Program-made: the position numbers and the translations under genes | Notes under the pieces: generated by a model | The model's input: the letters and a program-made list of their open reading frames with translations, nothing else | Told to the model about the DNA's origin: nothing | The model's database searches: none | Assembly: GCA_900313675.1 (NCBI GenBank) | Contig: OMSO01000012.1 | Span: 1 to 64,000 of the forward strand | Direction: 5' to 3' | DNA length: 64,000 nt | Origin: an uncultured Fibrobacter sp. | Lineage (GTDB): Bacteria; Fibrobacterota; Fibrobacteria; Fibrobacterales; Fibrobacteraceae | In this document: in pieces, positions 35,041 through 54,900 of the stretch | How the letters are laid out: each line of letters opens with the position of its first letter | Numbering within the stretch: position 1 is the first letter of the stretch

Positions 35041-35212
35041 AAAATAGTTGTGAGTTGTGAGTTGTGAGTTGTGAGTTGCGAGTTGTGAGTTGCGAGTGGT
35101 GAGTTGTGAGTTGTGTGGTATGAGATATGAGGCACGAACCTCAAAGGGAGCCTTTGGCGACCGAGCTCACACCTCAAAGCGAAGCGACCTCAAACCCCTA
35201 GCCCCTAGATAA
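35041..35212. repeat. GAGTTGT heptad array and CCTCAAAGC palindromic repeat
   Basis: About ten GAGTTGT heptads (35046-35118), then TATGAGGCACGAACCTCAAA with GGGAGCCTTTGGCGACC, then CTCACACCTCAAAGCGAAGC and CGACCTCAAACCCCTAGCCC. The CCTCAAAGC...GCGACCTCA unit also occurs at 60625-60660, 62265-62285 and inside the coding sequence at 61857-61917. The end supplies the last codons and TAG stop of the permease gene. Confidence 0.7.
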
Positions 35213-36343
35213 AATCATGTAGAATACCGCCTGGGTCGCCAAAGGCAAGAGGTAGGTAGCGGCATCGCTAACGCCTGCACCCCGCTGTTCAATGGCAAGC
35301 CACGCCGGAATGGCAAAGGTCGAAGGGAAAAAGTTGGAAAGTCCTTTCATCCAAATCGGGGCCAATTCAACAGGCCAACTAAAATTGGACAAGAACAGAA
35401 GCGGAATGGACATATACAGGAACAGCTGCACGCTGGTTTCGCGCCGCAAGAACACCTGGGACACCACCATGCCGAAATTGATGACAGCAAGTAAGAAAAT
35501 AAAGGTAAATACCGCCATGGGCAAGAATTCGCCACGACGGGGAAAGTCAAAGACATCGTAGATGACGAAGTGGTAAAACAATATGAAGCTGCAATAGTGA
35601 ACAAAGTAAGCGAAGGAGCGACCAAAGTACCGATAGAACAGGCCTTCATTTTCATGAGCGGTATTGCGTTGCAACTTGCGGAACTTGCGGTGGGCGCGAG
35701 CTCCCCCAAGCAGGCAAAGTCCAATCACCAGGGTCTGCTGCAATATCAGCACCAGCACGCTAGGGACAACATAGTTAGAATAGCTACCCGTATTGTTGTA
35801 CATGGTCTGAATGCCCAGGGGAATCGGGTCACGCATAGCCATGGCCTGCGCGGCAGGGACCTTCTTGGAAAGGGCGATTCGCTTGACCTTGGTTGTAGCC
35901 CCGAGGGTTAAGGCACAGGTGGAAAACGCCGTAGAGATGTTTCCATGAAGCATCACGTAGGCGCCGTGGGTAAACACGTTGACCACCACATTCTCGCCCT
36001 TCTGTAAATTCGCTTCCATCCCCTTGGGAATGACCATAAAGCCGTATATTTCTTCGCTCGCCATGGATTCCTCGGCATCGTGAATCTGGCCGAAGGTTTG
36101 CCGCACACTCACCTGCTGAGAAGCGTCTGCCATCTGGACGAGTTCGCGAGAAAGCTTGCTGTGGTCCATATCCACGACGGCTACGGGAATCTTGGAAACG
36201 GTCTGGTACTTGTAGGGCATGGGGTAATAGAACGCATAGAGCACGCCCGCCACCACCAGCAAAAGCACCGCCGCCGCATCGGTATAGAACAGTTTCCATT
36301 CCGCAACGGCCACCATGAAGAACCGCTTGAGGGCATCAATCAT
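35198..36343 (-). CDS. ABC-2 type transporter permease (second subunit)
   Basis: A 381-residue permease with one N-terminal membrane segment (about 20-40), a large extracytoplasmic loop (about 45-170) and five further membrane segments, the plan of YhhJ/YbhS/YbhR-type ABC-2 permeases. It overlaps the preceding permease gene by 8 bases. The end reads MILSRG and the TAG stop falls in the heptad repeat CCCTAGCCCCTAG, so the repeat sets the C-terminus. No ATP-binding subunit is in the cluster. The substrate is unknown; related systems export drugs or envelope compounds. Confidence 0.85.
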   Translation of the reverse strand: MIDALKRFFMVAVAEWKLFYTDAAAVLLLVVAGVLYAFYYPMPYKYQTVSKIPVAVVDMDHSKLSRELVQMADASQQVSVRQTFGQIHDAEESMASEEIYGFMVIPKGMEANLQKGENVVVNVFTHGAYVMLHGNISTAFSTCALTLGATTKVKRIALSKKVPAAQAMAMRDPIPLGIQTMYNNTGSYSNYVVPSVLVLILQQTLVIGLCLLGGARAHRKFRKLQRNTAHENEGLFYRYFGRSFAYFVHYCSFILFYHFVIYDVFDFPRRGEFLPMAVFTFIFLLAVINFGMVVSQVFLRRETSVQLFLYMSIPLLFLSNFSWPVELAPIWMKGLSNFFPSTFAIPAWLAIEQRGAGVSDAATYLLPLATQAVFYMILSRG

Positions 36344-37658
36344 CTGATACCTCCGGCGGTCGATTTTCTTCGTCCCGATTCATCTGCGGATTCATCAGGT
36401 TCAGATGCAGCCTTTCCGTATTTCGGGCCCCGTGCCTGTTTCCGATTCCATAATTCGCAGGATTCAAATCGTCGGCGACCACGCCCAGGGCAGCCTTAAT
36501 CTTGTCCTTCGCAGATCCGTGCTGTCGGACCCAGTTCAATTCCTTGCGCTTGGAGGCAAACCAGCGCACATACAGAAGTCTTGTGGCCAGCAGCTGCCAG
36601 AACAGTCCCATAAAAAGAAGGGTGACGATACTATCCCAGGCGTGCGCGCTGCCGGCAGGACCCACCAACATGGCGGACTGGACCTTGAGCAGGTGGGTCA
36701 GTGGCAACAGGTAGGCAAAACAGCGCACCACAAAGGGCATGGCCATCAGGGGGAAGGTCTGCCCCGCAAAGGCAAAGGCAGGGCCGCCAATCACACCCGC
36801 CACACTTGTAGCCATGCGCATGTTTCCCGTAATGCCCACAAAGGTCGCTCCGGCCCCGGTGCAGGCCAAAATCATGGCCAGCTGGCCCGCCGACACCAAG
36901 ACGAACTCCCTAAAGGTCATGGGAGTCAGCATACTATGGGCGTAGGCATACACCGCCATGAAGGCAAGCCACTGGACAACAATCAGGGGCAACATGGTCG
37001 CGCACATAAGGACGGCGCGGGATTTTCCGGCACGCCCGATCATCCAGCGGACCGTATGGTCCCTGAAGGGGAAACTGAACACGTAAACCGCCCCAAGAAT
37101 TGCCGCCAGATGGAAGATGGCACTGACCAGCCCCAGCCCCAAGAACCCCTGGTAGTTACCTTCGAGATTGCCGACGGAATGGAGTTCCACCTGGACAGGA
37201 TTGTCGATTCCTGCGGTAAAGAGCCCTTCGCCCACATTCGTCACCACCGCACGGATTTCTTTTAAGGCAAAGGAATTGGTCAGGTAGTTCTGCCCGCTGG
37301 AAAACACGGGAATCACAGGCGTCTCGAGGCGAAGGGCGCGGCGTTCCATATTGTACGGGATAACGAGAAAGGCCTGCAGGTCTCCACGGATTACCGCATG
37401 TTCGCATTCCCCGATGTCGCTGCACTCCTGGACCACATCCAGAACGGGATCCGACCGCAAGGCGTTTTCCAGTTTATCGGCTAGCAGGGACGCATCCTGA
37501 CGGACAATACCGATGGGCACGTGCTGAATAATACGGGCGGAGAAGAACTCCACCATAAACACGGAGGTTCCCACGGGCAACAAGAGAATTACCAGCCACA
37601 AGACAATGTTTGGACTGAAATAAATCTTCTTGACCGTGTCTGTGAACGCCCTGAACAA
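36336..37658 (-). CDS. ABC-2 type transporter permease (first subunit)
   Basis: A 440-residue protein with the same plan as its neighbour: an N-terminal membrane segment (about 18-38), an extracytoplasmic domain (about 40-175) and five membrane segments between about 180 and 375. A hydrophilic C-terminal tail of about 65 residues is extra. It sits after the HlyD gene, separated by a REP-like palindrome. With the TolC and HlyD genes upstream it should form a tripartite exporter, with the two permeases in the inner membrane. Confidence 0.85.
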   Translation of the reverse strand: MFRAFTDTVKKIYFSPNIVLWLVILLLPVGTSVFMVEFFSARIIQHVPIGIVRQDASLLADKLENALRSDPVLDVVQECSDIGECEHAVIRGDLQAFLVIPYNMERRALRLETPVIPVFSSGQNYLTNSFALKEIRAVVTNVGEGLFTAGIDNPVQVELHSVGNLEGNYQGFLGLGLVSAIFHLAAILGAVYVFSFPFRDHTVRWMIGRAGKSRAVLMCATMLPLIVVQWLAFMAVYAYAHSMLTPMTFREFVLVSAGQLAMILACTGAGATFVGITGNMRMATSVAGVIGGPAFAFAGQTFPLMAMPFVVRCFAYLLPLTHLLKVQSAMLVGPAGSAHAWDSIVTLLFMGLFWQLLATRLLYVRWFASKRKELNWVRQHGSAKDKIKAALGVVADDLNPANYGIGNRHGARNTERLHLNLMNPQMNRDEENRPPEVSDD

Positions 37659-37671
37659 TTTTATTTCCTAC

Positions 37672-37704
37672 GCCAAGGAGATTCCCGCCTTCGCGGGAAT
37701 GACA
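37672..37704. repeat. REP-like palindrome inside an operon
   Basis: GGAGATTCCCGCCTTCGC followed by GGGAATGACAG: an inverted repeat GATTCCCGCC, TTC, GCGGGAATG. It lies between the HlyD and first permease genes, both on the minus strand, and could stabilise or separate the upstream part of the mRNA. Confidence 0.65.
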
Positions 37705-37710
37705 GTTACA

Positions 37711-38709
37711 CTATTTCAATTGCTCCAGCGGGAACAACACGCTCATGCCGGGTCTCAGGTTTTCTACCTCTACCGTGGGGCGCAGGCGCACCTCGAAAGT
37801 CTTCAGGTCAAAGCCGCCACTTTCCTTGGAGCTTTTCCAGGTGGCATAGTCCCCAACAGGGGCAATGTAGGACACCTCCATCTCCACGGCGGCGTTCAAG
37901 GCCGGTACCGGCAGAACAAAGGTCTTGCCCTTGGTCACGTTCTTCAAGAAATCTTCCCGCAGGTGGAATACTGCCCAGGCGTCCTTCAGGTCGGTCACGG
38001 CGATTACCGGCATGCCCGCCCCCACGACCTCGCCTTCTTCCACCACCTTCAGGGTGACCTCGCCCGCGATGGGGCTCTTGATTTTTGTTTCTTCCAGATA
38101 GGCGTTCACCTCGGCGTTGGCGCCTTCGGCCTGCTTCACCAGGGCTTCTGCCGCCTCCTTGTCTTCGTCGCGGGCGCCTGCCAGGGCCATCTCGTACTGG
38201 GCCCGAGCCGCATCGGCAGCCCCCTGGGAGGCCTTCATCTGGGTTTCGGCCTCGTCCCGTTTCTGCAGCGGGAGCACGCCTTCGTTATAGAGTTTCTGCA
38301 CCCGCTCGTAGGTGTTCTTCGCCAGGTTGGCGGCATCTTGTGCACGGGCCGCCATGGCCTTCAGGGCCTTGACGTCTTCGGAGCGGGCACCGTTTTTCGC
38401 CTTGTTGGCCTGGGCCTTGGCCGCCCCCAGCGCCCCCTGGGCCTGCATTTTCTTGGCCTCGATTTCGGGGCTGTTGATGACCGCCACCAGGGCGTTCTTC
38501 TTGACGGTCTGGCCCTCACGGACCAAAAGTTTTTCTATGCGTCCGGGAACTTTCCCCGCCACCAACACGCGGCGGGCCTCCATCTGGCCCTGCAAGTACT
38601 TGTCCTTCGGCTTTGTCGCAAATTCCTGAAGTTGCAGAATAGCCGCCACCATAAGGGCCACCAGCACGACAATCGCAAAAATCTTGCTTGCAAACTTTAT
38701 CTTGTCCAT
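37711..38709 (-). CDS. HlyD-family membrane fusion protein
   Basis: A 332-residue protein with an N-terminal membrane anchor (about 10-28), a biotinyl-lipoyl-like half (VAGKVPGRIEKLLVREGQTVKK), a long coiled-coil hairpin rich in Ala and Lys (about 85-195), the second lipoyl half (IKSPIAGEVTLKVVEEGEVV) and a beta-barrel domain. This is the periplasmic adaptor that joins inner-membrane permeases to TolC. It overlaps the TolC gene by one base and belongs to the same operon. Confidence 0.9.
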   Translation of the reverse strand: MDKIKFASKIFAIVVLVALMVAAILQLQEFATKPKDKYLQGQMEARRVLVAGKVPGRIEKLLVREGQTVKKNALVAVINSPEIEAKKMQAQGALGAAKAQANKAKNGARSEDVKALKAMAARAQDAANLAKNTYERVQKLYNEGVLPLQKRDEAETQMKASQGAADAARAQYEMALAGARDEDKEAAEALVKQAEGANAEVNAYLEETKIKSPIAGEVTLKVVEEGEVVGAGMPVIAVTDLKDAWAVFHLREDFLKNVTKGKTFVLPVPALNAAVEMEVSYIAPVGDYATWKSSKESGGFDLKTFEVRLRPTVEVENLRPGMSVLFPLEQLK

Positions 38710-40295
38710 TATTCCTTCCCCACAGTTTTGCTATTCAACATGGACCCCGCCTGTTCCACCTCGCCGCTGGCTTCCAGCAGGCCAAGCCAGGCGATGACCG
38801 CATCGTAATGGGCCTTCAAATCGGCCACCTGGAGGCGCGACAGCGCAAGTTCTGCATCCACCACGTCCAGGCCCGTAGCAAGGCCGGACTCGTATGCCAG
38901 CTTTTGGCTGCGGAGGGCCTCGTCCGCAAGTTCACGGGTTTTCTTCAGGCTCTCCAGACGGCCCTTGGCATGCTCCAGCTCCCGCCAGCGCTTTTCTACC
39001 AAAAGGCCGATGTTGTCCAGGGTCTGCTCTTCCATACTGGCCAGGGAGCGGTCCATGGCCTTGGCGTTTGCCACCTTGGAGCGGGTCTCGCCACCCTTGA
39101 ACAAATCCCACTGGGCCTTGGCACCTACGGCCCATTCCGGTTCCAGAATAGTCAGGTCCTTGGTGTAGAGTTCCTTGTAGGCAAACAGGGCCACCGTAGG
39201 GAAGTAATCGGCACGGGCGGCACTCACCGCATCCTGGCTACGCTTGCGCTCCGTACGGAGCTGTCTCAGTCCCGGATGGTTCTCCCTGGCCTTCTGCTTG
39301 ATTTCTTCCATGGTCCGAACACTTTCCGGAGCTTCCACCGGCGTCACCGCCGTAATGTTCGTGTCCGTATGGAGCAGGCTTGCAAGAGCCATCCGGGCAA
39401 GGGACTGGTCCCGCAGGGCGTCGTCGTAGGCGTTTTCCGCTTCGGCCAGCGCCACTTCGGCGCGGAGCCTTTCCGCCTTGCTGATCTGGCCGCTGGCCTC
39501 CAGCTTCTTGGAGCGTTCCAGGTGTTCTTCCAGATTCTTCTTGGTGTTCTCCCGCATCACCGCCAGTTCTTCGGCCAGCCTAAGGGTAAAATACTTGGTG
39601 GCCACATCCATCAAGATGGCATTTTGCGCCATGTCAAAAGCGGCCTTCTTGGCGTTTACGTTTTCCTTGGCGGCATCGTAGGCGGAATAAATCTTGAGAC
39701 CCGTAAAAATGGGCCAGATGGCTGTAAGCCGAGCATTGAAGAACAGTTCGTCCTGGACCTTCATCCGGAATTCGGCATCGTCAATCTGGGATTTTGCCGC
39801 ATCCATCTGCTGTTGGGTGGCGGCGGCGTATTCATCGGCCTTCTGCTGGGCGATTTCCTGGGCGGTCCCTCCGAGCCGACTTTTGGCGAAAGCATCTGCC
39901 TGGGCTGCAGACAGCCCCTGAGCCAATGCACCGTTGTAGGCCTGGGCATACCCTGCACTGGCCTGGTTATAGGCGTCAATGTAGGCCTTGGAATAGGCGG
40001 CAGCCGGTGCCACCGTAGAAAGCCCGCCGGCAATGCCACTCAGGGCCTGCTGAATTTCACCTAAATCAATGTAAATGGGGTCGTTAATTCTCGTAACGCC
40101 TGCGCTCAGGCTTACCGTAGGCATAAAGCGGGAACGGGCCTCGCCCTGGGCGCTTTCGGCCATATCCACCTTGGCCTTTTCGGCCTTGATTTGTGCGTTA
40201 CCGGACTTGGCCATTGAAAGCGCGTCTTGCAGGGTGATAGGAGCCGACCACGCCAGCGCCACCCCAAAAAGAACTGACAAAAAACACTTTCCCAT
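38709..40295 (-). CDS. TolC-family outer-membrane efflux protein
   Basis: A 528-residue protein with a signal peptide (about 1-17, ending AWSAP) and the two-fold repeated outer-membrane factor architecture. The helical halves contain VAEAEN-like and LRQLRTERKRSQDAVSAARADYFP segments typical of TolC-like channels. An unusual insertion between residues 70 and 160 is Ala/Gln-rich (KAYIDAYNQASAGYAQAYNG) and may lengthen the channel or form a plug. It is the first gene of the export operon. On the minus strand TATCTTTTATAGTT lies directly before the ATG, giving an almost leaderless start. Confidence 0.88.
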   Translation of the reverse strand: MGKCFLSVLFGVALAWSAPITLQDALSMAKSGNAQIKAEKAKVDMAESAQGEARSRFMPTVSLSAGVTRINDPIYIDLGEIQQALSGIAGGLSTVAPAAAYSKAYIDAYNQASAGYAQAYNGALAQGLSAAQADAFAKSRLGGTAQEIAQQKADEYAAATQQQMDAAKSQIDDAEFRMKVQDELFFNARLTAIWPIFTGLKIYSAYDAAKENVNAKKAAFDMAQNAILMDVATKYFTLRLAEELAVMRENTKKNLEEHLERSKKLEASGQISKAERLRAEVALAEAENAYDDALRDQSLARMALASLLHTDTNITAVTPVEAPESVRTMEEIKQKARENHPGLRQLRTERKRSQDAVSAARADYFPTVALFAYKELYTKDLTILEPEWAVGAKAQWDLFKGGETRSKVANAKAMDRSLASMEEQTLDNIGLLVEKRWRELEHAKGRLESLKKTRELADEALRSQKLAYESGLATGLDVVDAELALSRLQVADLKAHYDAVIAWLGLLEASGEVEQAGSMLNSKTVGKE

Positions 40296-40466: not shown

Positions 40467-41951
40467 ATGTACGAAACTTTGAAACAAAGAATCAAATGTC
40501 CTGAACTCCATGAAAAAATCCGCTCCAGCAGCGAGGCCGCTAGTTACATTACCCCGGGCATGACCATCGGCGTTAGCGGATTCACCCTCTCAGGTTACCC
40601 AAAAGAAGTCGCCAAAGCACTTGCCGAGCGTTCTCACCGCGGTGAAAAGCTGGAATTGACCGTATATTCTGGCGCATCCCTGGGCGATGACTTCGACGGA
40701 CTTTTGACACGGGCAGGGGCTCTCAAGTGCAGAATGCCCTACCAGACAAACACCGATTTGCGCAACGCCATCAACGAAGGCAAAGTCAAATACGTGGATT
40801 TACCCCTGAGCCTCATGTCCAAATGGGTTCGCAGCGGATACCTGAACCATATCGACGTGGCTCTGGTAGAGGCCAGCTCCATCGACGAAAATGGAAACAT
40901 CATCCCCACGGCTTCCGTGGGCGCATCCGAAGCCTATGTGGCCAGTGCCGACAAGGTGATTGTAGAAATCAACACCTACGTTCCCGAAAACATCAAGGGA
41001 ATCCACGACATCTACATGACGGAACTGGCTCCCAACACCAAACCAATCCCGCTGACCAAGGTGGCGGACCGTATCGGCACACCCTACATTCCTTGCGACC
41101 CGTCCAAGATTGTAGCCATCGTCCAAAGCGAAATTCCCGACTGCGGCATCCCAGAAACTGCCGGTGACGAAGATTACAACAAGATGAGCGAGAACCTGAT
41201 CAGCTTCCTAGAAAAAGACGTGGAAGCGGGCAGGCTCTGCAATCCGCTGCCGCCTATCCAGGCGGGCATCGGTGCCGTCTCCAACGCAGTGCTCTCGGGT
41301 CTGCAAAAATCCAAGTTCGAGCACCTGACCGTCTATTCCGAAGTCATGCAGGATTCCCTGGTGGACCTGATTGAATGCGGCAAGGTGGATGCGGCCTCTT
41401 CTACCGCCATCACCATGTCCAAAGAAAAGATGAAGGCTTTCTTCGAAAAACTGGATGCGCTGAAGGGCAAGATTGTGCTTCGCCCCATGGAAATCAGCAA
41501 CAGCCCCGAAGTGATTCGCCGCCTGAACGTGATTGCCATCAACACCATCATCGAAGCGGACCTCTACGGAAACACCAACTCCAGCTACGTGGGCGGAAGC
41601 CGCCTCATGAACGGCGTGGGCGGTTCCGGAGACTTCTGCCAAAACGGCGGTCTTTCCATTTTCATCACCAAGTCCACCGCGAAAAACGGCACCATTTCTT
41701 CTATCGTCCCGCTGGTAAGCCATATCGACCATACCAGCAAGACAGTGCAGGTGATTGTGACGGAACAGGGCGTCGCCGACCTTCGCGGCCTGAACGTCAT
41801 CGAGCGCGCCCATGCCATCATCGACAACTGCGCCCACCCCAAGTTCCGCCCCGCTCTTGAAAAATACCTAAGAAAGGCCTCTGTGCTTTCGGACTACCCT
41901 GCCTACCCCTACAGCGTGGAGGCGGCACAGATGTTCCACGGATCCGTCTGA
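40467..41951 (+). CDS. Acetyl-CoA hydrolase/transferase family, succinate CoA-transferase type
   Basis: A 494-residue class I CoA-transferase. GVSGFTLSGYPKEV near the N-terminus and YSGASLGDDFDGLL are typical of the Ach1/succinate:CoA transferase group. The C-terminal half carries AGIGAVSNAVLSGL, the acyl-site strand, and VGGSRLMNGVGGSGDF. Length is standard. Members move CoA between succinate and acetate or related acids, which fits a succinate- and acetate-forming fermenter; the exact pair of acids is not shown. The next gene starts one base inside its stop, so the two are coupled. Confidence 0.88.
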   Translation: MYETLKQRIKCPELHEKIRSSSEAASYITPGMTIGVSGFTLSGYPKEVAKALAERSHRGEKLELTVYSGASLGDDFDGLLTRAGALKCRMPYQTNTDLRNAINEGKVKYVDLPLSLMSKWVRSGYLNHIDVALVEASSIDENGNIIPTASVGASEAYVASADKVIVEINTYVPENIKGIHDIYMTELAPNTKPIPLTKVADRIGTPYIPCDPSKIVAIVQSEIPDCGIPETAGDEDYNKMSENLISFLEKDVEAGRLCNPLPPIQAGIGAVSNAVLSGLQKSKFEHLTVYSEVMQDSLVDLIECGKVDAASSTAITMSKEKMKAFFEKLDALKGKIVLRPMEISNSPEVIRRLNVIAINTIIEADLYGNTNSSYVGGSRLMNGVGGSGDFCQNGGLSIFITKSTAKNGTISSIVPLVSHIDHTSKTVQVIVTEQGVADLRGLNVIERAHAIIDNCAHPKFRPALEKYLRKASVLSDYPAYPYSVEAAQMFHGSV

Positions 41952-43222
41952 TGTACAAATACACCCTAAATTACACAGAACAGATGTATGCCGCCAACAA
42001 GGCGGCACTTCCCTGTTTTACAGTAACGTTAAAAAAGCCTGTAGATGGTAAAATACTGAGCGAGGCGGTAAACGCAGCCCTCAGCTACCACCCCCATTTC
42101 AAGACAAGACTCGTCAAAGAAAAGGGGCTGTACGCCCTTGTCGAAAATTCCAAGGAACCCATTGTCAAGGAATGCGACTGGGATAGGGAAATCGTATATG
42201 GCGGAGACGATTACAATCATTTTCCATGGGTTATCGCCTACACCGGGAAAAAAATCAGCTTCTCGGCTATACACGCCCTCACCGACGGTGGCGGCACCTT
42301 GTGTTTCCTGTTCGCCGTGCTCCGGCAATACCTGGAGCGCACAGGGGTAATGTTCATGACTCCTGTGGGCCATGTGCCAGACGAAAGCATCGGGCGCACC
42401 ATGGAGGACATGTTCCAGGTCAACGGGAATCCAGCCGTCAAAAGTTTTTACAAGCCAAGCTTTGGTGCGGCCATGGAGATTCCCGCAGAATTCTACGAGA
42501 CCCATCCAGAAAAGGTGGCCGTTTACCGCATAAGCCTTTCGCTACCGGACATCAAGAAATATTCCATTGAAAGCGAAACCTCGAACTTTACCGTGGTTGC
42601 CTACATTATAGCCAAGGCCATGGAGCTCGCTCTTGGTAAATCCGAGGGGATAATCAAGCTTCGCATCCCCGTCAGCATGAGAGGGGTGTTCAAGAGCATC
42701 TCTGACCGAAAGAGCATCATCATTCCGCAGTTGAACTACGACATCAAACGCATGGGCAGGCTAGACCGCAAGCTGGTGGAAACAGCCTTCAAGGGCCAGC
42801 TGTTCTTGCTTTCTGACAAGGACAACGCCATAGAAAACTGCAACGAGATGAACAGCGCCACCCAGGCTCTCCTGGAGCACCCGGAAACCTTAGCGGCCCA
42901 GGCCAAGGCCTTCGACGACGGATGCAACGCCATGACGGCAGGCATCTCGTATTCCCAGGCCACCAACGCCCACAGTTTCGGAGAAATGGAACAGTACATG
43001 GAGAACTACGAGGTTTACCATTTCGCCGACTGCATGCACTACATGGAAATCATCGGCAACACGTTCAACGACAGGATCAACCTATCTGTCAGCCAAAGCA
43101 GCAAAGGCGATTGTCTTATAGACAAGCTACGCAAGGTAATGGACGAAGAAAAAGTCCATTACGAAATCGAAAAAGTCCACACCCACGGCAGAATGAAGCC
43201 CGCCGAAAGCGTGTTCGCCTAA
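41951..43222 (+). CDS. Condensation-domain-like acyltransferase
   Basis: A 423-residue protein of the CoA-dependent acyltransferase / condensation superfamily. The catalytic motif is HALTDGG (His108, HxxxDG). TMEDMFQ and the segment VSMRGVFKSISDRKS lie at the positions of substrate-channel motifs. It most resembles stand-alone alcohol acetyltransferase or phthiocerol-type acyltransferases. Coupled to the CoA-transferase gene (TGATG overlap), it may use the acyl-CoA that the neighbour makes; this is inference. It converges on the lamin-tail gene with one base between the stops. Confidence 0.72.
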   Translation: MYKYTLNYTEQMYAANKAALPCFTVTLKKPVDGKILSEAVNAALSYHPHFKTRLVKEKGLYALVENSKEPIVKECDWDREIVYGGDDYNHFPWVIAYTGKKISFSAIHALTDGGGTLCFLFAVLRQYLERTGVMFMTPVGHVPDESIGRTMEDMFQVNGNPAVKSFYKPSFGAAMEIPAEFYETHPEKVAVYRISLSLPDIKKYSIESETSNFTVVAYIIAKAMELALGKSEGIIKLRIPVSMRGVFKSISDRKSIIIPQLNYDIKRMGRLDRKLVETAFKGQLFLLSDKDNAIENCNEMNSATQALLEHPETLAAQAKAFDDGCNAMTAGISYSQATNAHSFGEMEQYMENYEVYHFADCMHYMEIIGNTFNDRINLSVSQSSKGDCLIDKLRKVMDEEKVHYEIEKVHTHGRMKPAESVFA

Positions 43223-43223
43223 G

Positions 43224-44840
43224 TTACTTTCCAACGGTGGGTTCGGCAGCCTTCCAGGCAGAAGCCTCGTAACCCATGGTAGAGTAGTTGGTGCGCTGCA
43301 GGCTCTTGCCAAAACCGTCCGTTTCTTCGAAACCTTTCCAGGTATCGGAATAGAGCGTGGCATCGGACCAGTCGTAGTACCATTGGACTACAGATGTCAA
43401 TGTCGGATCGGTCTCGCTGTACACGGCATCATCAAAATCGAAAGGCTCCTTTACAGCCACCGTTTCACCGCGGTTCGAAAGCTTGCCCTTATAGAGGCAA
43501 ATCTGCACGTCGCTTGCAATCTTGTAATCGGTGCGAATGGCGCCCGTATCCTTCACCAGGGAATCAGAAAGCAGCAGCACCTTGCCACCTGCAGGTACGA
43601 TAGTTCCCGAAGAGAACTCCATGTTGATGCCTTCCACCTTCCAGCCCTTGCTCTTGGCGGACTTGGTCACGTAAAGGTTCACCGCCGTATCGGCCTTGTT
43701 CACGATCTCCATAAATTCGAAAGGCACGGCACCGCCCTCCATGGGGTGGTAGTAGATCTCGTCGATAAAGAGAGGTCCCACTTTCAGGGCATCGTTTGCA
43801 GCCCCCTTGGTGGCCTTTTTCATGGCGCCCTGGGCCGTAGAGCCGTCGCTCACATCTATGATACCGCTACTCAGGTTGCTGGCCGCCAGGAGCAGGCTAG
43901 ATTCGCCACCGGTCTTTTTGCCGCCCACCGTTTCGTACAGGTAGTAAGAACCGCCCTTGGGATTCAAGATGATTTGTTCACCGAACACGGACTCGTCATC
44001 GGCAGGGAGCACCAGGTAACCCTTGGCAGGAACCTTACCCTTCTTGATGGTCCAGGCCATCTTCTTGTACTTGGATTCAAAAATCCAGCCGCTCACATCC
44101 ACTTCCTTGTCGCCGGAGTTGTAAAGTTCTACCCAGCCGTTATCCGTTCCCAGCACAAAGGGTTGGATTTCGTTCAGGCGAACCGTAATGGGAGACACAT
44201 ACTCGTCGGCGGCACCAGGATTGCCCCACTCTTTTTTGCTTGCGGCCCAGGCACTGGCCTGGCTGGGGTTTCCACCCACGAACACCAGGCTGCTGCCGTT
44301 ACCGTCGGCAAGGCTCGGCCAAGGCGGTTCCTTGCTAAAGGCACAGCTCACGTCGCCAGCACCCGTCAGCTTCACGTCAATAACGTCGCCCTCGTTAGAA
44401 AGCTTGGCAATGGAATCGGTCTTTATGTCCTTTTCCCAGGGGCCAAACAGACGGCCTTTGAAATCCTTGTAGGTCTTCTTGAACAGGTCGGGGTCGTTGG
44501 TCACCACGATGTATTCGTTGGTATCCAAGGGTTCCGCCGGGAAATAGTAGGTCACCGCTCCATCCAGATGGAGATTGAAGTACTGCATATCGCTCATGGC
44601 AGACCCGCCGATAATCTTCAGTTCCACCCATTCAAGAGCTGAATTTTCGGGAGCGTTGTACATGATTTCGGTAATCATCACGTAGGCGCCACCCGCCTCC
44701 GTAGAATTCTGGTCGTAGCCGCTGTCTTCGCCTTTCGGGTCGTCACCGCTACTAGAAGAACTGTCGGAACAAGCCGAAAACAAGCCAGCCATGGCAAAGG
44801 CTGCCATCGCACCTACTATAGACCATTTTTTCGAGAGCAT
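43224..44840 (-). CDS. Lipoprotein with lamin tail domains
   Basis: A 538-residue protein. The start at 44840 follows GGGAGGC and gives a signal with the lipobox LFSAC followed by a Ser-rich linker. Three lamin-tail-like (LTD) beta domains can be seen: MITEIMYNAPENSALEWVEL near 40, VRLNEIQPFVLGTDNGWVEL near 210 and LFIDEIYYHPMEGGAVPFEF near 370. LTD domains occur on bacterial surface proteins, often with CotH or nucleases; neither is seen here. It is the last gene of a five-gene operon with the VTC-domain protein 31 bases upstream. Probably exposed on the outer membrane. Confidence 0.8.
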   Translation of the reverse strand: MLSKKWSIVGAMAAFAMAGLFSACSDSSSSSGDDPKGEDSGYDQNSTEAGGAYVMITEIMYNAPENSALEWVELKIIGGSAMSDMQYFNLHLDGAVTYYFPAEPLDTNEYIVVTNDPDLFKKTYKDFKGRLFGPWEKDIKTDSIAKLSNEGDVIDVKLTGAGDVSCAFSKEPPWPSLADGNGSSLVFVGGNPSQASAWAASKKEWGNPGAADEYVSPITVRLNEIQPFVLGTDNGWVELYNSGDKEVDVSGWIFESKYKKMAWTIKKGKVPAKGYLVLPADDESVFGEQIILNPKGGSYYLYETVGGKKTGGESSLLLAASNLSSGIIDVSDGSTAQGAMKKATKGAANDALKVGPLFIDEIYYHPMEGGAVPFEFMEIVNKADTAVNLYVTKSAKSKGWKVEGINMEFSSGTIVPAGGKVLLLSDSLVKDTGAIRTDYKIASDVQICLYKGKLSNRGETVAVKEPFDFDDAVYSETDPTLTSVVQWYYDWSDATLYSDTWKGFEETDGFGKSLQRTNYSTMGYEASAWKAAEPTVGK

Positions 44841-44871
44841 AGAGCCTCCCTTTTTTGCGGACACACCGCCA

Positions 44872-45690
44872 TTAAAAATTTCCCGCGAGCCTTGTCCAAT
44901 AGGGGTCCTTGAAATCCTTGGGGTGTTCATAGACCCTGGACCATTCCGCGGCGGCGTTTCCGAATTTAGAAAAACCGCCCTGTCGCAGGTTCAAAAAGCG
45001 AATCAAATCAATCATCCAGAAGGGCACCTGGGAACAGGGACACTTCAGTTCCAGCACGGCGTCGCAGCCCGGCTTGAAAAAGCGGGGTAGCCCCGTAGAA
45101 TGCATGTAGTGGGGGTCCACCGTGTAGTCAAAACCAGTCTCTTCCCGAAAACGCATGCCCGTATCGATAGTCACCCGGGAATATTCCTCCCGGAGCCCGA
45201 ACCAGGCCCGGCGTTTGTACTGGGTCAAAAGCCTCGGGTGGGCGTTGTACAGGTGAGTCTTGTACAAAAAATCTTTCAGGTACTTGCGGTCCGTATCGCT
45301 CTTGCAGGGCCAATCTTCCGGCTTCATGTTCCAGACTTCGCCAGGGCTTATCCCCTTGACGGTGGCGCGGCTCTTGTAGCAGACCTCTTTCACCTTCCGC
45401 TTGCTTTCGAAATGGAAGGTGCCGTCTTGTGCCGGGTGCTCACCATAGGTGCGGATACGCATGTTGAAGCGGTCCAGCAGCCGCGCCTTTTTCCAGCCGA
45501 GAAATGTCCAGCGGTCCGAATCCAGGTACAGGTTCGTAATCCAGTAAAAATGACCCGGCGTAATCTGGGAGTAATGATCCTCTTCGCAATAGGGCGCAAT
45601 GAATTCGCCGATACGGTCCGCCCATGCCACAGGAATGTGGTACTTGAGCTCGAATCGCTCCAACAGGCTAAAACCGCGGGCTTCGGCCAT
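44872..45690 (-). CDS. VTC-domain protein (polyphosphate polymerase-like)
   Basis: A 272-residue soluble protein that consists of the VTC (triphosphate tunnel) domain only. Conserved charged residues for the tunnel are present: ERFELKYHI (R12, E14, K16), R78 and R80 in MRIRTYG, E95 and K97 in FHFESKRK, R160 and R161 near YKRRAWFG, E214 and K216 in VLELKCP. In yeast Vtc4 the same fold makes polyphosphate from ATP. The bacterial versions are often near DUF4956 and CotH genes, as here near DUF4956. It overlaps the TolC-like gene by one base. A CPC motif at 217-219 is unusual. Catalytic activity is likely from the residues but unproven. Confidence 0.85.
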   Translation of the reverse strand: MAEARGFSLLERFELKYHIPVAWADRIGEFIAPYCEEDHYSQITPGHFYWITNLYLDSDRWTFLGWKKARLLDRFNMRIRTYGEHPAQDGTFHFESKRKVKEVCYKSRATVKGISPGEVWNMKPEDWPCKSDTDRKYLKDFLYKTHLYNAHPRLLTQYKRRAWFGLREEYSRVTIDTGMRFREETGFDYTVDPHYMHSTGLPRFFKPGCDAVLELKCPCSQVPFWMIDLIRFLNLRQGGFSKFGNAAAEWSRVYEHPKDFKDPYWTRLAGNF

Positions 45691-47081
45691 TACTTGAGGC
45701 CCTCCCGCAGGTGGTTTTTCACATTGGGATTTGCAAAGATACCCGTATAGGTCAGCAAGACCAGATACCGTTCAAAGATATCGTATTCCAACTTCAAGGC
45801 CTTCAGGTCGCTTTCCAGAGCGCTCTCGCGGGCACGCAACAGCAGAAGCGGGTCCGCCCCTGCCGACTGGGCAAAGTCCTCAAAGAGGTTTCCGGCATTC
45901 ACCTTCTCCACAAAGTCCTTCTGCACCTTCCACTGGGCCACCAGGGCCACGATTTCTTCGGACAGACGGGAAACTTTTTGGGTTAGAGTCCGCACGGCAT
46001 CCAGGTAATCGCTTTCGGCGTCCAGTTCATCCACCTGATTGCGTAATGCGTTCCCGTTGTTGTCATCCAGGAACGGGAGCCTCACTGCCAGATTCACAAA
46101 GAACTTGTCCTTCAGCTGACGGTCATCCTTGTCGGGCACCAAAAATTCTGCCGTACCGTCGCAGTTGATCGAAGAACACCCGGTCTTGTCCAGCCAATCC
46201 TTGTAATAGTCGTTGTAGGCACCATAGGGGCCCACATCGCCGGCATCCAGTTCCTTGTACTTTTTCATTAGGGATTCAATCTTCAGGGAATAGCCCACGC
46301 CGATATGGGAAATGAAATCGTTTCCCTTGGCCAGATCCCGCTTGGACTTGGCCTGTTCGTATTCCATCTTGGATTTTGCCTTCATGACTTCGGGGAACTG
46401 GTCGTTTACCGCAATACCGTCTTGCAGTCCCTTGGCAAGTTCATCCATGGTAGGGAGCCACGAGGTATCCAGGCCCACGGAATCAAAGTCAGGCACCCAG
46501 GACTTGAGTTTCAGCTCCGCATCTTTCAGGGCGGTACTATCTCCCAGAAGTTCTGCACGGCGGGCGGATTCTTGCTCCAGGGCCACAATCAGGTCCTGGG
46601 AATTGAAGGTCTCGCTCCCAGCCTTCAGGTGGAGCACCTCGATGCGGTCCAGGTTCACCTGGTAGAGCTGCTTGTCAATTTCGGCAATCTTCCGGCGGAT
46701 GACATAGCGGAGCGCCCGCTCGTAGCGGTCGTAAAGCAGGTACGAACGGTCCACCGCCAGGCGGGCTTTCTGGTAATCCCGCAGGGTCTCGTACTGGCGC
46801 TTGTCCGCAGAGCCTATACCGAAAGACTTTGGCTTGAGACGCAGTTCAAAGTCGTGCTTCGCAAAACTGAAACCGTCCAGCTGGTAACGGAATTCCAGGT
46901 TGTCCCACAGCTTGGTTCCCACATCCTGGGAAGCCGCCTGGGAGCGTTTCTCCGACGTCTGGTAAACCGGGTCCTTATCTACGGACTCCACCAGCTGCTC
47001 CCAGGTCAAGGGGGCGGCAACGGCGGCAGCGGAAAGGATTGCCGCAAAAAACGCAGTAATAAAAAACCTATTATCGTACAT
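45690..47081 (-). CDS. TolC-like outer-membrane factor in the VTC operon
   Basis: A 463-residue protein with a signal peptide (about 1-22) and a long helical build with heptads, weakly similar to outer-membrane efflux proteins. It lacks the clear repeat of the TolC at 38709. An extra segment with two cysteines (GCSSINCDG) near 310 may form a disulphide. The partner HlyD-type protein is encoded just upstream after a repeat-filled spacer, so an outer-membrane exit duct is the likely job. It could also be a coiled-coil periplasmic protein. Confidence 0.65.
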   Translation of the reverse strand: MYDNRFFITAFFAAILSAAAVAAPLTWEQLVESVDKDPVYQTSEKRSQAASQDVGTKLWDNLEFRYQLDGFSFAKHDFELRLKPKSFGIGSADKRQYETLRDYQKARLAVDRSYLLYDRYERALRYVIRRKIAEIDKQLYQVNLDRIEVLHLKAGSETFNSQDLIVALEQESARRAELLGDSTALKDAELKLKSWVPDFDSVGLDTSWLPTMDELAKGLQDGIAVNDQFPEVMKAKSKMEYEQAKSKRDLAKGNDFISHIGVGYSLKIESLMKKYKELDAGDVGPYGAYNDYYKDWLDKTGCSSINCDGTAEFLVPDKDDRQLKDKFFVNLAVRLPFLDDNNGNALRNQVDELDAESDYLDAVRTLTQKVSRLSEEIVALVAQWKVQKDFVEKVNAGNLFEDFAQSAGADPLLLLRARESALESDLKALKLEYDIFERYLVLLTYTGIFANPNVKNHLREGLK

Positions 47082-47107
47082 TCACAAACCTATACACTTC
47101 TATCTCT

Positions 47108-47206
47108 TTCAGGCAAGTGATTGCTTCGCACCTACCGTGCTCGCAATGACATCTCCATTCTACATCACTCACTACTCATCACTCATTACCCATTACTCAT
47201 CGCCAC
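47108..47206. repeat. REP-like unit and CATTACT heptads inside the VTC operon
   Basis: GTGATTGCTTCGCACCTACC and GTGCTCGCAATGAC form an inverted REP-like unit (about 47115-47151), followed by ACTCACTACTCATCACTCATT and similar heptads up to the HlyD stop codon. This fills the 111-base gap between the HlyD and TolC-like genes. Confidence 0.65.
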
Positions 47207-48284
47207 TGCCGAAAAGGGCTTCCATAATCCGGGTCGCCAGGTCCTTGATCTTACCTTCTTCGGAAATGGCCACCATCTCCCCCAGCAAGAAGGAATTGTC
47301 TTCGGGAATCTTGATGGTCACTTCGCGGCCATACACCGGCATGTCGGGCATTTTCCACATACGGTCCGGGAACACCACGATACGGCTAGAAAGGCCGACC
47401 ACCTCGCCCTTGATGGGCTTGCCCTTGCCGCCCAGAGTGCGGATCTCTACATCTTTGCCCAGGTTCATGCGCTGGTAGACCTGCTCGTTGATGTATCCGC
47501 GGATTAAAGATGGGGACTTGTGGGTCAAGGTCACGATAGGCGTAAAGCTAGAGACCTTTTCGCCTTCACGAACGTTCACGCTACCAACCACCCAGCTTTC
47601 CTTGGCAATCTGCACCAGGTCGGCCTGTTCCTTTTTGAGCTGTTCCAGTTCCTTGTGCAAGGTGGCGGCCTCGGTGGCGCCGCTTCTCCTTTGAAGACTA
47701 CGGCTCCCCTGCAAGAGGGCAATCTGCTCGTTGGCGTTTTTCTCGGCCAGGGCCAGCTCGTCTTTCAGGTTCTTGATCTGCATGGCCATGCCGTCGTTGC
47801 CACCGGCCTTGGCGTTGTTTCCGCTCAGGCTTTTCAGCTTAGAAGAAATTTCCTTGTTCTTCTGGTATTCCGTTTCCAGCCTGTTGATTTCAAACCGGAG
47901 CGCCGCACTGCGGGTAGCAAGGTCCGCCTTCACGGAGGCCACCCGCTGGTCGATATCCGCCTTGTTCAGGCTGCTACGACCCTCGATGGCGTCCAGCTCC
48001 CGGGTCACTTCGTTGATGCGGAGCGTCAAATCCGGGCGGTTCAGTTCCACGATGGTATCACCCGCCTTGATTTCTTGACCGGGCATCACATGGACCTTCA
48101 CGATTTCGGTAGCGCTAGGCACGCTGATGATGGTTTCAGAAGCTTCGGCGATGCCCTGGAACAGGGCGACGTTCCCCTGGTAAAAATACCCCAGACCCAC
48201 CACAGCCACTACGGCCAGAATCCAGGCGATAGAAAGCTTGCGCTTGTAGATAGAAGAAATGAGGAATGTGTTTTTCAAAGCCAT
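47193..48284 (-). CDS. HlyD-family adaptor in the VTC operon
   Basis: A 363-residue periplasmic adaptor: N-terminal membrane anchor (about 18-35), first lipoyl half (ATEIVKVHVMPGQEIKAGD), a long coiled coil (about 85-220), second half near GSVNVREGEKVSSFTPIVTL and a beta-barrel. It follows the DUF4956 gene by 13 bases. It should link an inner-membrane protein with the outer-membrane TolC-like protein. The only inner-membrane candidate in the operon is DUF4956, which is not a known transporter. Confidence 0.87.
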   Translation of the reverse strand: MALKNTFLISSIYKRKLSIAWILAVVAVVGLGYFYQGNVALFQGIAEASETIISVPSATEIVKVHVMPGQEIKAGDTIVELNRPDLTLRINEVTRELDAIEGRSSLNKADIDQRVASVKADLATRSAALRFEINRLETEYQKNKEISSKLKSLSGNNAKAGGNDGMAMQIKNLKDELALAEKNANEQIALLQGSRSLQRRSGATEAATLHKELEQLKKEQADLVQIAKESWVVGSVNVREGEKVSSFTPIVTLTHKSPSLIRGYINEQVYQRMNLGKDVEIRTLGGKGKPIKGEVVGLSSRIVVFPDRMWKMPDMPVYGREVTIKIPEDNSFLLGEMVAISEEGKIKDLATRIMEALFGSGDE

Positions 48285-48297
48285 TTTCGTTCCTCCC

Positions 48298-48981
48298 CTA
48301 CATGTCCGTGGTGGCGTCCTGCATCATGAACTGGATGTCAGAAAGCCCCTCCACCTTGGAGAGTTCCGCAAGGACTTCGGCCGCAGGCTTAGACGCCTTC
48401 AGCTTTATCTGGTAGGCAACGTCTATGCGCTCGCCGCCGTTCACCTCCCGCATGGTTATCAAGATAAACGTCTTCAGGTTTTTCCGCAAAATCTTTTCCG
48501 TTTCCAGGCGGGGTTCCGATGTATTGGGCATGGCAAAGCGGAGCATACCATCAAAGAAATGCTTGGTGCCAAGACCCGTGCGAGAAAGCAAGAAGGCAAC
48601 TACACAGAAGGCCAAAGTTCCGCCTACGGCAGCGCCCCAGGCATACACGCCGCAACCGATGCCAGCGCCCAAGGCCGCAAAGATGAACATGATGTCGCGG
48701 GGGTCCTTGAAGCTGGTGCGGAAGCGGACAATGGAAAGGGCGCCCAGCATTCCGAGACCGCGGCCCACATTGTCGCCGATGGCCTGCATCACCGTAGCGG
48801 CCACCACCGAACTGAGCACCAGGGCCTGCACATAGTTTCTGGAGTAGGAAAGTCCGAGGAAGGTCCGTTCGTAGGTCCAGCCGATAATGGACGAAAGCAC
48901 AAAGGCCAACAAAAGCGTATAGGCCAGGGTAATGATAGTGGCGTTAGCCGTACTGGATTGAACAGCCAATAAGTCGAGCAT
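48298..48981 (-). CDS. DUF4956 membrane protein
   Basis: A 227-residue protein with about four or five membrane segments in the first 150 residues, then a soluble alpha/beta domain of about 75 residues. The segment GLGMLGALSIVRFRTSFKDPRD, with Arg and Asp next to a membrane helix, is the family hallmark. Function unknown. DUF4956 genes are often beside VTC-domain genes in bacteria, which suggests that the pair works together. The ATG follows GGAG at a spacing of 6; a TATCTT box at 49008-49013 is the likely promoter of the whole five-gene operon. Confidence 0.85.
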   Translation of the reverse strand: MLDLLAVQSSTANATIITLAYTLLLAFVLSSIIGWTYERTFLGLSYSRNYVQALVLSSVVAATVMQAIGDNVGRGLGMLGALSIVRFRTSFKDPRDIMFIFAALGAGIGCGVYAWGAAVGGTLAFCVVAFLLSRTGLGTKHFFDGMLRFAMPNTSEPRLETEKILRKNLKTFILITMREVNGGERIDVAYQIKLKASKPAAEVLAELSKVEGLSDIQFMMQDATTDM

Positions 48982-51929: not shown

Positions 51930-54900
51930 TCACTTGATGGCGACAGAGCCGGCGGCCTGCTTAGAGCCCACGCGGACGCGGACCATGTAGAGTCCGGACT
52001 TGGGGGTCTGCAGGGTCAGGGCATTGGAACCGGACACGGCCGTTCCCGAAACAGAGGACAGGACCTTGCCCTTCATATCGAGGATTTCCACGTAGGCCCT
52101 GGCACCTGCCAGGCTTTCGGAGACCTGGAAGCCCACCTGCAGGGAGTTACCCGCCTGGAAGGCACGGAGCCCGTTCAGCTTCTGGGCCACCACGGTACGG
52201 GCGGAGGGCGCCACACGGACCACAGCCGTCTTGGCCATGCTCCCGATGGAAACCTTCAGGGTGTCGTTCTCGGCCATCTGGGTAGTGGTACCGTCAACCG
52301 TCACGAACACCTTGAGGCCAGCGGCATTCAGGTCGCGGACACCTTCGAAGTGCAGGTAGCCCGTGCGGTCGCCAGAGGCTTCCAGAGAGACCGTCCATTC
52401 GTAGCTGTCGCCGGCGGCCTTCTTGAAGGACTTGGAGAGGGACTTGTTGCCGTCCTTGATGGACAGGTTCACATGGTCACCCATACCGGAAGGCGGCTCT
52501 TCGGAAGCCCATCCGGACTCGGAGACGCCCATGAAGTTCCAACTGTCCCGTTTGCCCTTGGCGTCGCGGAGTACGGCACGAATCACCCAGCCCTTGCCGC
52601 CGGAGGCTAGCTCGACGGTCTTCTTCAGGGGCTCGACCACATTCTCCTCGCCTTCTGCGTCTACGGTCGCTACAAAGGCAGGCTTAGAGGGCAGTTTCCA
52701 CTGGCTCGGGCCTGTGACCTTCGCCCATACGGCCTCATACGGACCAATCACATCCACAGGTTCATAATCACCAAGGCTGTCGTTCCAGCTGTAGAATTCA
52801 ATGCTGGACTTTTCAGTAGCGGCCTTTTTCTCGTTCGGGTTTTCACCATAGAGGTCCACATACCAGCCGTAGGGGTTAGCCACCATATTCCAGCCGGTAT
52901 AGACACTGTCCATATTCCAGACCACGGGGTCCTTAGGAGCAGCCATATCCTTTTTCATGACCAGCGGGCGACCTTCCAGGGAACTGTACCAGTAACCCGT
53001 CAGGTTGTCCACCTTGTCGTCCCGGTTCAGCCTCTGGTATTGCCAGAAGGCGCCCGTGTTCCGGGTGTCGTCCCACCAGTAGAAGCGAATATCGTCGTCC
53101 CAGGTCACGGAGTCCATAACCACGTTGGACAGCGACAGCATGCGCCAGCCGCCTTCGGCAGCAGAAGCAATTTCGGCCTTCACCTCGAAATCCTGTTCGA
53201 ACACATCGGAGGACTTACTGTTTGCAACCGTGGCCGTCAGCAGGAACGTGCCCGCACGCAGGGGGTAGTAATCCCAGGAGCCTTCGTAAGGCGTCTTCGA
53301 GATCTGGATTACGGAATCCGCAACCACTTTCCCGTCATCGTCTTCCAGCACAACCTTTACAGATGCACCACTTGCGCCAAACTCGTTGGTAGCAAATTCA
53401 AAGCGGATAGCGCTACCGGACTGCAACAGTTTCGATGTGACGAACTTGGCCGGTGTGGGATTTTCCGGCATAAAGTAGGCAGCGAAAGTAGCCTTGGTGA
53501 TGCTACCCGCAAGGGTATCCCCTTCGTGATACACATACTTCTTGCCATCCAAGGTCATAACCAGGGAATCCAGTATGTAATCCTTTGCAGGCAAGCCCTG
53601 GACCACAAAGCTCGAACCCTTCACATAGTAAGGCAAGAGCATGGTGCCGTCCTTGGCGAACTTGTGCAGTTGGGTGCCGATTATCTTTCCGGTGGAATCC
53701 TTGCGAATTTCCTTGAACGCCACGGAACCGTTCTCAGATTCCGTCAGCTTCGTCTGCTTGTAGCTAAGCTCCTCGACGCAGGTCTTGGCATCTACCCACT
53801 TGGCGTACAGGGGGTATTTCTCCTGACGGTTGCCAACTTGCAAATCCAATTCCTCTGACAACGCAAAATTGAACACATCAAACGCCACTGCCCAATTGTC
53901 AGGCATTTCATATTCGCAATTAGGTTCGTCATTACAATCAGGGTTCCAATTGACATCGGGCCCTTCCATGACGGGTTCATCCTGATTTTCAATATTGGAA
54001 TGCACGGTCCAGCCCTCTACGCATTGGTCTGCAGTATAGACCCAGAACGGCAAATCGATGGCGTCATCTTCGGCATTAAGCTTGTATGTTCCCACGGAAT
54101 CAGAATTCTCGCCGTAAAGAACATCGGTCTTGCCGGTTTCAAAAACAATATTGAACTTCTTGTAGGTGTAGTTGGCGGAGAATTCCATATTCGAAGACAT
54201 AAGCTCCCACGAATCGATCGTCAACAGGTCGCCTTCCTTGAGTTTTTTTGTCTCCGGGGTCCCTCCATCGAAGGAAGCCTTGGTGAAAGTAATGTCTCCA
54301 TCCAATTCATAACCTGGATAACCGTCGGCAAAGACCTCAAAGACAAATTTATTGGTATCAGCGTAAGGCACCAGGATTCCCGTCACGCCCACATCTTGCT
54401 GTACAGACTTATGCCTCAGGGTATCGCCCATCCACACCTGCTGTAAGACGATGTTCCCTAGTTCGGAGTTATCCTTGACAACATAGTTGTTCCAGACCAA
54501 TTCCTGTTCTTCGCGAATACGATAGCCTGCATAATCAGAACAAGAAGCCACATCGTATTTCCATTGCGCATACAATTTCATTGACTTGGAGCCGTCTTTA
54601 TTGGTCGTGTAGGGAATGCGCTGCTCTTCTTCGTTACTAAGCAATTCCTCTACCATCCCAAAATTGGACATGTAAATGCCATCAGAGTACAGGTCTGGAG
54701 AAAACTCTCCCACAAAACAAGCATCCGTCCGGAAAGCATACCATTGATAGGATTCAAAGAATTGCTCATACTGATTTTCAGCGGTATAGGTAGCACCAAG
54801 TTCGGTTTTACCGTTCCAGGTAGTCGCTATAAAGAGCGGATTATAGTCTGTATTAGTTTCGTAATTGATATCGAAGGTCACATGATACCGAATTTCAGCG

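Follow-up and report, generated by a model that had tools for sequence, protein, structure and literature searches.

The locus analysed here raises the question of whether a polyphosphate polymerase domain, a DUF4956 membrane protein and a HlyD/TolC-type envelope conduit that are encoded side by side form a single machine and, if so, what that machine may do. The window, by which we mean the whole stretch of 64,000 nucleotides analysed from an uncultured Fibrobacter sp., contains five open reading frames between positions 43224 and 48981, all on the minus strand, for a DUF4956 protein, a HlyD-type adaptor, a TolC-like protein, a VTC protein and a lamin-tail-domain (LTD) lipoprotein. It is already known that related VTC, DUF4956 and CotH genes lie beside Gram-positive Pel operons. 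The open papers searched (preprints and most subscription papers being outside the scope) contain no description of the DUF4956-HlyD-TolC-VTC set, no paper that brings together VTC, polyphosphate, HlyD and TolC, and none on Bdellovibrio with polyphosphate and VTC.

The gene for the DUF4956 protein (48298..48981; 227 aa) is separated by 13 bases from that of the HlyD-type periplasmic adaptor (47193..48284; 363 aa). A gap of 111 bases (47082..47192) precedes the gene for the TolC-like outer-membrane channel protein (45690..47081; 463 aa), which shares a single base, within TAATG, with the gene for the VTC protein, a putative polyphosphate polymerase with a triphosphate-tunnel domain (44872..45690; 272 aa). 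The LTD lipoprotein gene (43224..44840; 538 aa) follows after 31 bases, counted to the lipoprotein-type ATG at 44840. The preliminary description had reported the five same-strand genes with these spacings, and all of the coordinates were confirmed; its further statement that the 111-base gap is filled with repeats holds only in part, since the gap contains just two 18-nt direct repeats, 83% alike. Promoter-like sites occur at the locus at chance frequency, and a plasmid search found no close copies.

The order of the cassette genes is the same in five families of Fibrobacterota, with changing flanking genes. For a broader comparison we used the 80 closest relatives of the VTC protein among 84,980 species genomes, a sample that was picked by similarity to one VTC type and is consequently not representative of all bacterial VTCs. 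All four core genes are found on one strand within 6.5 kb at 64 of these 80 loci, in ten named phyla, and 63 of the 64 orders are rotations of DUF4956-HlyD-TolC-VTC (DHTV 33, HTVD 20, VDHT 10), the remaining one being DVHT. Profiles built from Fibrobacterota cassettes only detect DUF4956 in 61, HlyD in 62 and TolC in 45 of the 68 loci outside that phylum, and find neither HlyD nor TolC in any of 23 "plain" VTC loci; these counts were made with uniterated cassette profiles because the iterated HlyD and TolC profiles also matched an ordinary efflux pair in the window. The matrices of pairwise identity for the four proteins are correlated with one another (r 0.84–0.91), and the median distance from the TolC stop to the VTC start over 107 loci is −1 base, with a 4-base overlap in 33. 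Cultured carriers of the four-gene set include Bdellovibrio bacteriovorus, Desulfonema magnum, Desulfoluna limicola and Nannocystis. The proposal that the set is one unit is thus borne out by kept order, across Fibrobacterota and beyond, by co-inheritance and by overlapping genes, and the sequence comparisons support very well that the grouping did not arise by chance. As their association extends over some ten phyla, perhaps more, the four genes probably form one machine.

The VTC protein matches PF09359 with 104.2 bits (Pfam cut-off 23), and its family profile finds Vtc4 chains as the best matches among solved structures (E 7e-15); a single-sequence search with the window protein alone found nothing. 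Of ten mapped Vtc4 tunnel residues, nine are identical in the window protein and invariant over 50 aligned relatives: K200, R264, R266, K281 and K294 of Vtc4 correspond to K16, R78, R80, K97 and K106, and R361, R373, E426 and K458 to R160, R172, E214 and K242. The exception is R253, which is replaced by K67. R264, R266 and E426 are the positions that were altered to inactivate Vtc4 (PMC9911596). Judged by this alignment, which agrees with the earlier claim that the charged tunnel residues are kept, the tunnel is intact with its catalytic residues present, and the protein looks capable of polyphosphate synthesis. It has no apparent signal peptide and is therefore taken as cytoplasmic, and Pfam finds the VTC domain only, with neither an SPX nor a fused membrane domain. 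Sequence identity to Vtc4 is low.

The DUF4956 protein (PF16316, 51 bits, cut-off 30.6) is modelled with moderate quality (pLDDT 83.6, pTM 0.64). Five membrane helices are predicted at residues 16-40, 46-68, 72-88, 94-111 and 115-135, followed by an ACT/ferredoxin-like C-terminal domain for which the fold search matches ACT-type folds, and the invariant columns over 44 relatives are R86-x-R88 and D96. The family profile gave chance-level matches only among solved structures, and the results of the fold search were filled by the ACT-like domain and bear on that domain only; for the membrane part there is no known-channel match. The predicted helices fit the place of inner-membrane partner that had been suggested for this protein, and we propose DUF4956 as the candidate partner, or channel, of VTC.

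In the envelope conduit, the HlyD protein exceeds the cut-offs of PF16576 and of HlyD_3 (PF13437; 38 bits, cut-off 22.2), and a long form occurs in 45 of the 80 related loci, which in those examined is a fusion with a phytase-like/DUF3616 propeller-like domain. No Pfam family matches the TolC-like protein itself, while 25 of its 62 relatives match OEP (PF02321). Its family profile finds solved TolC chains (E 2e-8), and the model (pLDDT 91.9) matches E. coli TolC in Foldseek with E 3e-11 and TM 0.63/0.60; the TolC fold, with helical tunnel, barrel strands and two repeats, is confidently modelled, in line with the original assignment. A basic conduit was considered on the ground of net charge and is not supported, the window protein being acidic overall (−13) and its family mostly acidic, in terms of whole-protein net charge rather than pore lining.

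The operon contains no ABC, RND or MFS partner for this pair. Only 2 of the related loci have ABC-like open reading frames within 3 kb, which are not a common part, and the recurrent neighbours of the related loci, which were not scanned with RND or MFS profiles, include no common transporter. The pair is accordingly accompanied by neither an inner-membrane pump nor an ATPase, as the preliminary description had noted for the ATPase. The window also holds a second, ordinary HlyD/TolC efflux pair with its own ABC-2 permeases.

The LTD lipoprotein (PF00932 in three stretches, 87 bits, cut-off 34.3), whose start MLSKK...LFSAC ends in a lipobox, had been counted as the fifth member of the system. 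It is present in the operon and kept with the cassette in Fibrobacterota, but it is not part of the core, because at other loci it gives way to CotH, forms a fusion with CotH or is absent: other phyla have CotH or CotH+LTD in its place, and CotH lies within 6.5 kb in 22 of the 80 related loci. The lipoprotein is a surface or outer-membrane accessory, a variable partner. The window's operon has no CotH gene; four unlinked ones are found in the genome.

Fibrobacterota also carry a paralogous VTC-DUF4956 pair, whose VTCs form a separate branch of the VTC tree and which has HlyD/TolC nearby in 0 of 23 cases. These plain loci, with Porin_O_P or DUF2490 and CotH, share the two-protein core and an outer-membrane protein with the cassette but have a porin-like barrel where the cassette has HlyD/TolC. 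The adjacent envelope gene matches Porin_O_P at 14 of 17 loci and DUF2490 at 2 of 17, the Porin_O_P matches being weak (best 2.9e-6) and the family name broad; the porin-like family found no match among solved chains. Porin_O_P denotes the phosphate-selective porin O/P family. As to other polyphosphate enzymes, 19 of 111 genomes from the family yielded PPK1 and 1 yielded PPK2, and neither was found in the window's genome. Among the Fibrobacter genomes searched, PPK1 is absent from most and PPK2 was found in none, and VTC is present in 76 of 80. PPK1 and the cassette occur together in 5 of 10 other genomes, so the cassette is not simply a PPK1 replacement. The literature searched holds no report of polyphosphate in Fibrobacter.

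We infer from these observations a trans-envelope machine for polyphosphate synthesis and export that works without a separate permease or ATPase, a model to which we give about even chances of being right. The cytoplasmic VTC protein would add phosphates from ATP to a chain growing in the basic tunnel, and the chain would pass into an inner-membrane assembly of DUF4956, with five helices and the Arg-x-Arg motif at the predicted cytoplasmic mouth, whose ACT-like domain may serve in the cytoplasm as a contact or sensor. The HlyD adaptor would join DUF4956 to the TolC-like tube, so that no separate pump would be needed to take the chain through the periplasm and the outer membrane. The driving force would come from the synthesis reaction together with the membrane potential, as in the yeast VTC complex, and the LTD lipoprotein (elsewhere CotH or CotH-LTD) may receive, anchor or use the chain at the surface.

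Several known systems resemble parts of this model. The yeast complex (Vtc1/Vtc3/Vtc4) has the same VTC/triphosphate-tunnel catalytic domain and tunnel residues and makes polyphosphate at the mouth of a membrane channel that bears basic residues, synthesis being coupled to translocation (PMC9911596), a coupling that is likewise proposed here. In the cassette, by contrast, a separate protein of 272 aa carries the catalytic domain and has neither an SPX nor a membrane domain; the role of membrane partner would fall to DUF4956, for which the comparisons made gave no sequence relationship to the membrane domain of the Vtc proteins; and the chain would have two membranes to pass, by way of HlyD and TolC. 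The adaptor and the tube of tripartite pumps and type I secretion systems have the folds found here, but where those systems have an ABC, RND or MFS component the cassette has a polymerase and DUF4956. In the synthase-dependent secretion of cellulose, alginate and Pel, the polymerase moves the chain and hands it over to a periplasmic and outer-membrane path. The same working principle is proposed for the cassette, which differs in polymer, enzyme and membrane proteins and is not a member of that class. The accessory group CotH-VTC(PPP)-DUF4956 of Gram-positive Pel operons (PMC7112168; SIR_1592-1594 in PMC12345266) has VTC and DUF4956 adjacent and often CotH, as in relatives of the cassette, but lacks HlyD/TolC and is attached to pelDEADAFG, and the window's operon lacks CotH. 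In Streptococcus intermedius, Pel and aggregation are lowered when the DUF4956 and CotH genes are lost (PMC12345266), an effect that may be taken to point to a role in polysaccharide biology. The zetaproteobacterial stalk genes (sfz; PMC8250860) were considered as a relative and set aside, no VTC, HlyD, TolC or DUF4956 being named there.

In a rival reading, the product of VTC-DUF4956, either polyphosphate or a phosphorylated carrier, would modify or cross-link a surface polysaccharide made elsewhere, and HlyD/TolC would export that polymer or a modifier. Besides the position of the accessory group next to Pel operons, this reading draws on the reduced Pel and aggregation of S. intermedius without the DUF4956 and CotH genes and on a C. 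perfringens locus where VTC and CotH accompany a chitin-synthase-like glycosyltransferase (PMC2879425). We consider it rather unlikely, since the loci examined show no recurrent glycosyltransferase or polysaccharide synthase next to the cassette and the window's operon has neither. The product itself might be different, for example a phosphorylated lipid, a glycan or an oligophosphate exported by HlyD/TolC. Triphosphate-tunnel enzymes have varied chemistry; the identity to Vtc4 is low, and the literature searched contains no report of bacterial VTC activity. The invariant tunnel residues and the Vtc4 chains as closest solved relatives speak against such a product and make it unlikely in our view.

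The remaining alternatives concern the conduit. Polyphosphate might be delivered to the periplasm only, as a store, with HlyD/TolC doing a separate job and being kept near by co-regulation, and both the plain pairs without HlyD/TolC in the same phylum and the Gram-positive relatives, which have no outer membrane, would fit this arrangement. It is nevertheless very unlikely given that, across some ten phyla and three rotations of the gene order, HlyD and TolC are neighbours of DUF4956 and VTC or stand between them, that no other cargo gene is common to the loci, and that the plain pairs usually have an outer-membrane porin-like gene instead. That the pair is an ordinary multidrug-efflux adaptor and channel, a chance neighbour of VTC with its permease encoded elsewhere, is largely refuted and highly improbable: the EmrA and RND adaptor matches that favour it are weak and far under the cut-offs, whereas the linkage to VTC is conserved over many phyla and the pair with its own permeases is the separate one in the window, which the cassette-only TolC profile misses and the HlyD profile matches with only 24.6 bits.

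An extension of the export model, which we regard as quite unlikely, is that the exported polyphosphate acts as an extracellular phosphate donor with which CotH-type kinases phosphorylate surface proteins or glycans or attach the chain. ATP is practically absent outside the cell, and lamin-tail surface proteins are found fused to or replacing CotH. If true, this extension would account for the association of VTC, DUF4956 and CotH in Gram-positive as well as Gram-negative bacteria and would amount to a dedicated system of polyphosphate secretion and surface phosphorylation.

We know of no dedicated bacterial polyphosphate exporter. Some bacteria carry polyphosphate outside the cell, for example in the gonococcal pseudo-capsule (PMC10237660), and the four-gene set is a concrete candidate for such an exporter. 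If the export model is true, it would give DUF4956 a function, provide a case of a TolC tube run by a polymerase and not by a pump, and help to explain why VTC genes are found beside CotH and Pel genes.

The window lies on contig 35 of an incomplete 2.4-Mb genome whose nearest relatives are Fibrobacter-like. The preliminary description had five genes running in one direction, and the operon is borne out on the minus strand from 48981 to 43224, where genes for DUF4956, a HlyD adaptor, a TolC-like protein, a VTC protein and a lamin-tail (LTD) lipoprotein follow one another with gaps of 13, 111, -1 and 31 bases, as described. The TolC-like protein falls below the Pfam cut-offs and the other four exceed them. 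The HlyD-TolC gap contains short direct repeats (CATCACTCAYTAC...) at 47163-47201, and its longer repeat string has a single copy within the window. An acyltransferase-like gene without Pfam match (41951-43222, plus strand) converges on the last gene of the operon; a surface-like protein of 1942 aa with a weak C-terminal sorting domain is encoded at 51930-57758 (minus strand).

VTC is present, almost always singly, in 136 of 168 Fibrobacterota genomes, and 80 of the VTC regions of this phylum were taken for comparison of gene order. The order, on whose persistence in relatives the earlier interpretation depended, is kept together with strand (DUF4956-HlyD-TolC-VTC-LTD) in the window's genus and in four families of the phylum (f4, f5, f7 and f10); LTD is absent from a few of these loci, and the flanks vary, the CoA-transferase, acyltransferase and DASS genes being retained in the nearest species only. 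Using the VTC of non-Fibrobacter cassettes as query, we also searched 84,980 species genomes and obtained 80 loci, including the named cultured strains Bdellovibrio bacteriovorus kdesi, Desulfonema magnum, Desulfoluna limicola and Nannocystis pusilla. The close grouping of the four core genes in other genomes, proposed earlier as a check, was found at 64 of the 80 loci (one strand, within 6.5 kb), and contig ends interrupt several loci short of four genes. The complete loci belong to Fibrobacterota, Thermodesulfobacteriota, Myxococcota, Bdellovibrionota, Calditrichota, Delongiibacteriota, Campylobacterota, Spirochaetota, Pseudomonadota and Lentisphaerota, and to records without a named phylum (UBP6 and rumen genomes among them). 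With genes abbreviated to initials, their orders are DHTV (33), HTVD (20), VDHT (10) and DVHT (1), so that 63 of the 64 can be read as the same circular order begun at different genes. Because the iterated HlyD and TolC profiles were broad enough to match the window's ordinary efflux pair, we recounted with narrower profiles built from Fibrobacterota cassettes alone, which at 68 loci outside the phylum detected DUF4956 at 61, HlyD at 62 and TolC at 45. The TolC stop and VTC start overlap by a median of one base (107 loci). Matrices of pairwise identity agree among the four proteins with correlations between 0.84 and 0.91, which none of 999 permutations reached; shared species history contributes to this agreement. 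This comparative sequence evidence is strong, and the four core genes almost certainly act as one unit. The component families are already known; the preliminary description knew of no account of the set as one machine, and we found none of the combination, its spread or its likely function in the open literature searched.

By alignment, with numbering counted by hand, K200, R264, R266, K281, K294, R361, R373, E426 and K458 of Vtc4, the catalytic subunit of the yeast complex, correspond to K16, R78, R80, K97, K106, R160, R172, E214 and K242 of the window's VTC, all nine invariant among 50 relatives. R264, R266 and E426 were changed to inactivate Vtc4 in a cryo-EM study, which also shows the yeast enzyme above a membrane channel that carries basic residues, with synthesis and translocation coupled (PMC9911596). 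The predicted structure of DUF4956 has five helices and, C-terminal to them, an ACT/ferredoxin-like domain; two relatives weakly match an MgtC/SapB-family model. The charges of DUF4956 suggest an N-out, C-in topology; helix 3 would then have its cytoplasmic end at the invariant R86-x-R88 and the K92/R95 segment.

The TolC-like family has an OEP match in 25 of 62 relatives, its profile matches E. coli TolC chains at E 2e-8, and the model of the window's protein (mean pLDDT 91.9) aligns to TolC over the full length (TM 0.63/0.60, E 3e-11). HlyD has a long form (>480 aa) at 45 of 80 loci, the extra C-terminal part being propeller-like in the examples examined, with weak phytase-like and DUF3616 matches. 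Such a domain, fused to HlyD or lying between HlyD and TolC, occurs in many phyla (related loci L041:5712-6668, L032:4691-6667 and L121:293-2302) and is absent from the window's operon. Several Bdellovibrionota encode an exported-looking protein of ~1100 aa without Pfam match directly 3' of VTC (L145:10783-14112). The alternative that the pair belongs to a drug-efflux family with its own permease is best judged against the window's separate, ordinary efflux locus (35198-40295, minus strand), where TolC (OEP 179 bits), HlyD and two ABC-2 permeases stand in a row. There the permeases adjoin the second HlyD/TolC pair (37711-40295), whereas no permease or ATPase was found as a shared companion of the cassette pair among the loci (ABC by signature motifs only), in keeping with the absence of an ATPase noted before.

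Fibrobacterota also carry paralogous VTC-DUF4956 pairs, here called plain, and profiles from the cassettes of the phylum found HlyD and TolC at 0 of 23 such loci. One branch with support 91 separates plain from cassette VTCs in a quick tree with long branches present. Of 17 envelope genes adjoining plain pairs, 14 match Porin_O_P and 2 match DUF2490, with weak scores but a recurrent answer. The plain loci present the VTC-DUF4956 core in a second envelope setting. Loci L061-L083 (except L071), for example L061:7917-10842, combine a Porin_O_P-like or DUF2490 outer-membrane neighbour with CotH, and some plain loci carry a Cthe_2159 carbohydrate-binding protein.

OprO of Pseudomonas is a polyphosphate porin. 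The VTC tunnel, the Porin_O_P and DUF2490 neighbours of plain loci and the scarcity of polyphosphate kinases (PPK1 in 19 and PPK2 in 1 of 111 genomes of the family) point to polyphosphate as the cargo. Two results speak against so simple a view: 5 of 10 other genomes have both PPK1 and the cassette, and most of the TolC-like proteins are acidic. We consider it probable that the window's VTC makes polyphosphate, and the chances that HlyD/TolC, the putative export path, carries the chain out of the cell are about even. The cassette has CotH or CotH-LTD proteins as companions in Fibrobacterota, Thermodesulfobacteriota and Calditrichota, among others, and neither was found with the Bdellovibrionota cassettes among the 80 loci compared. 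In Gram-positive bacteria VTC, DUF4956 and CotH adjoin Pel operons (PMC7112168), and S. intermedius has less Pel and aggregates less once it lacks the DUF4956 or the CotH gene (PMC12345266). Taken with the company of CotH, these observations make a surface polymer the common thread, with polyphosphate as the likeliest direct product.
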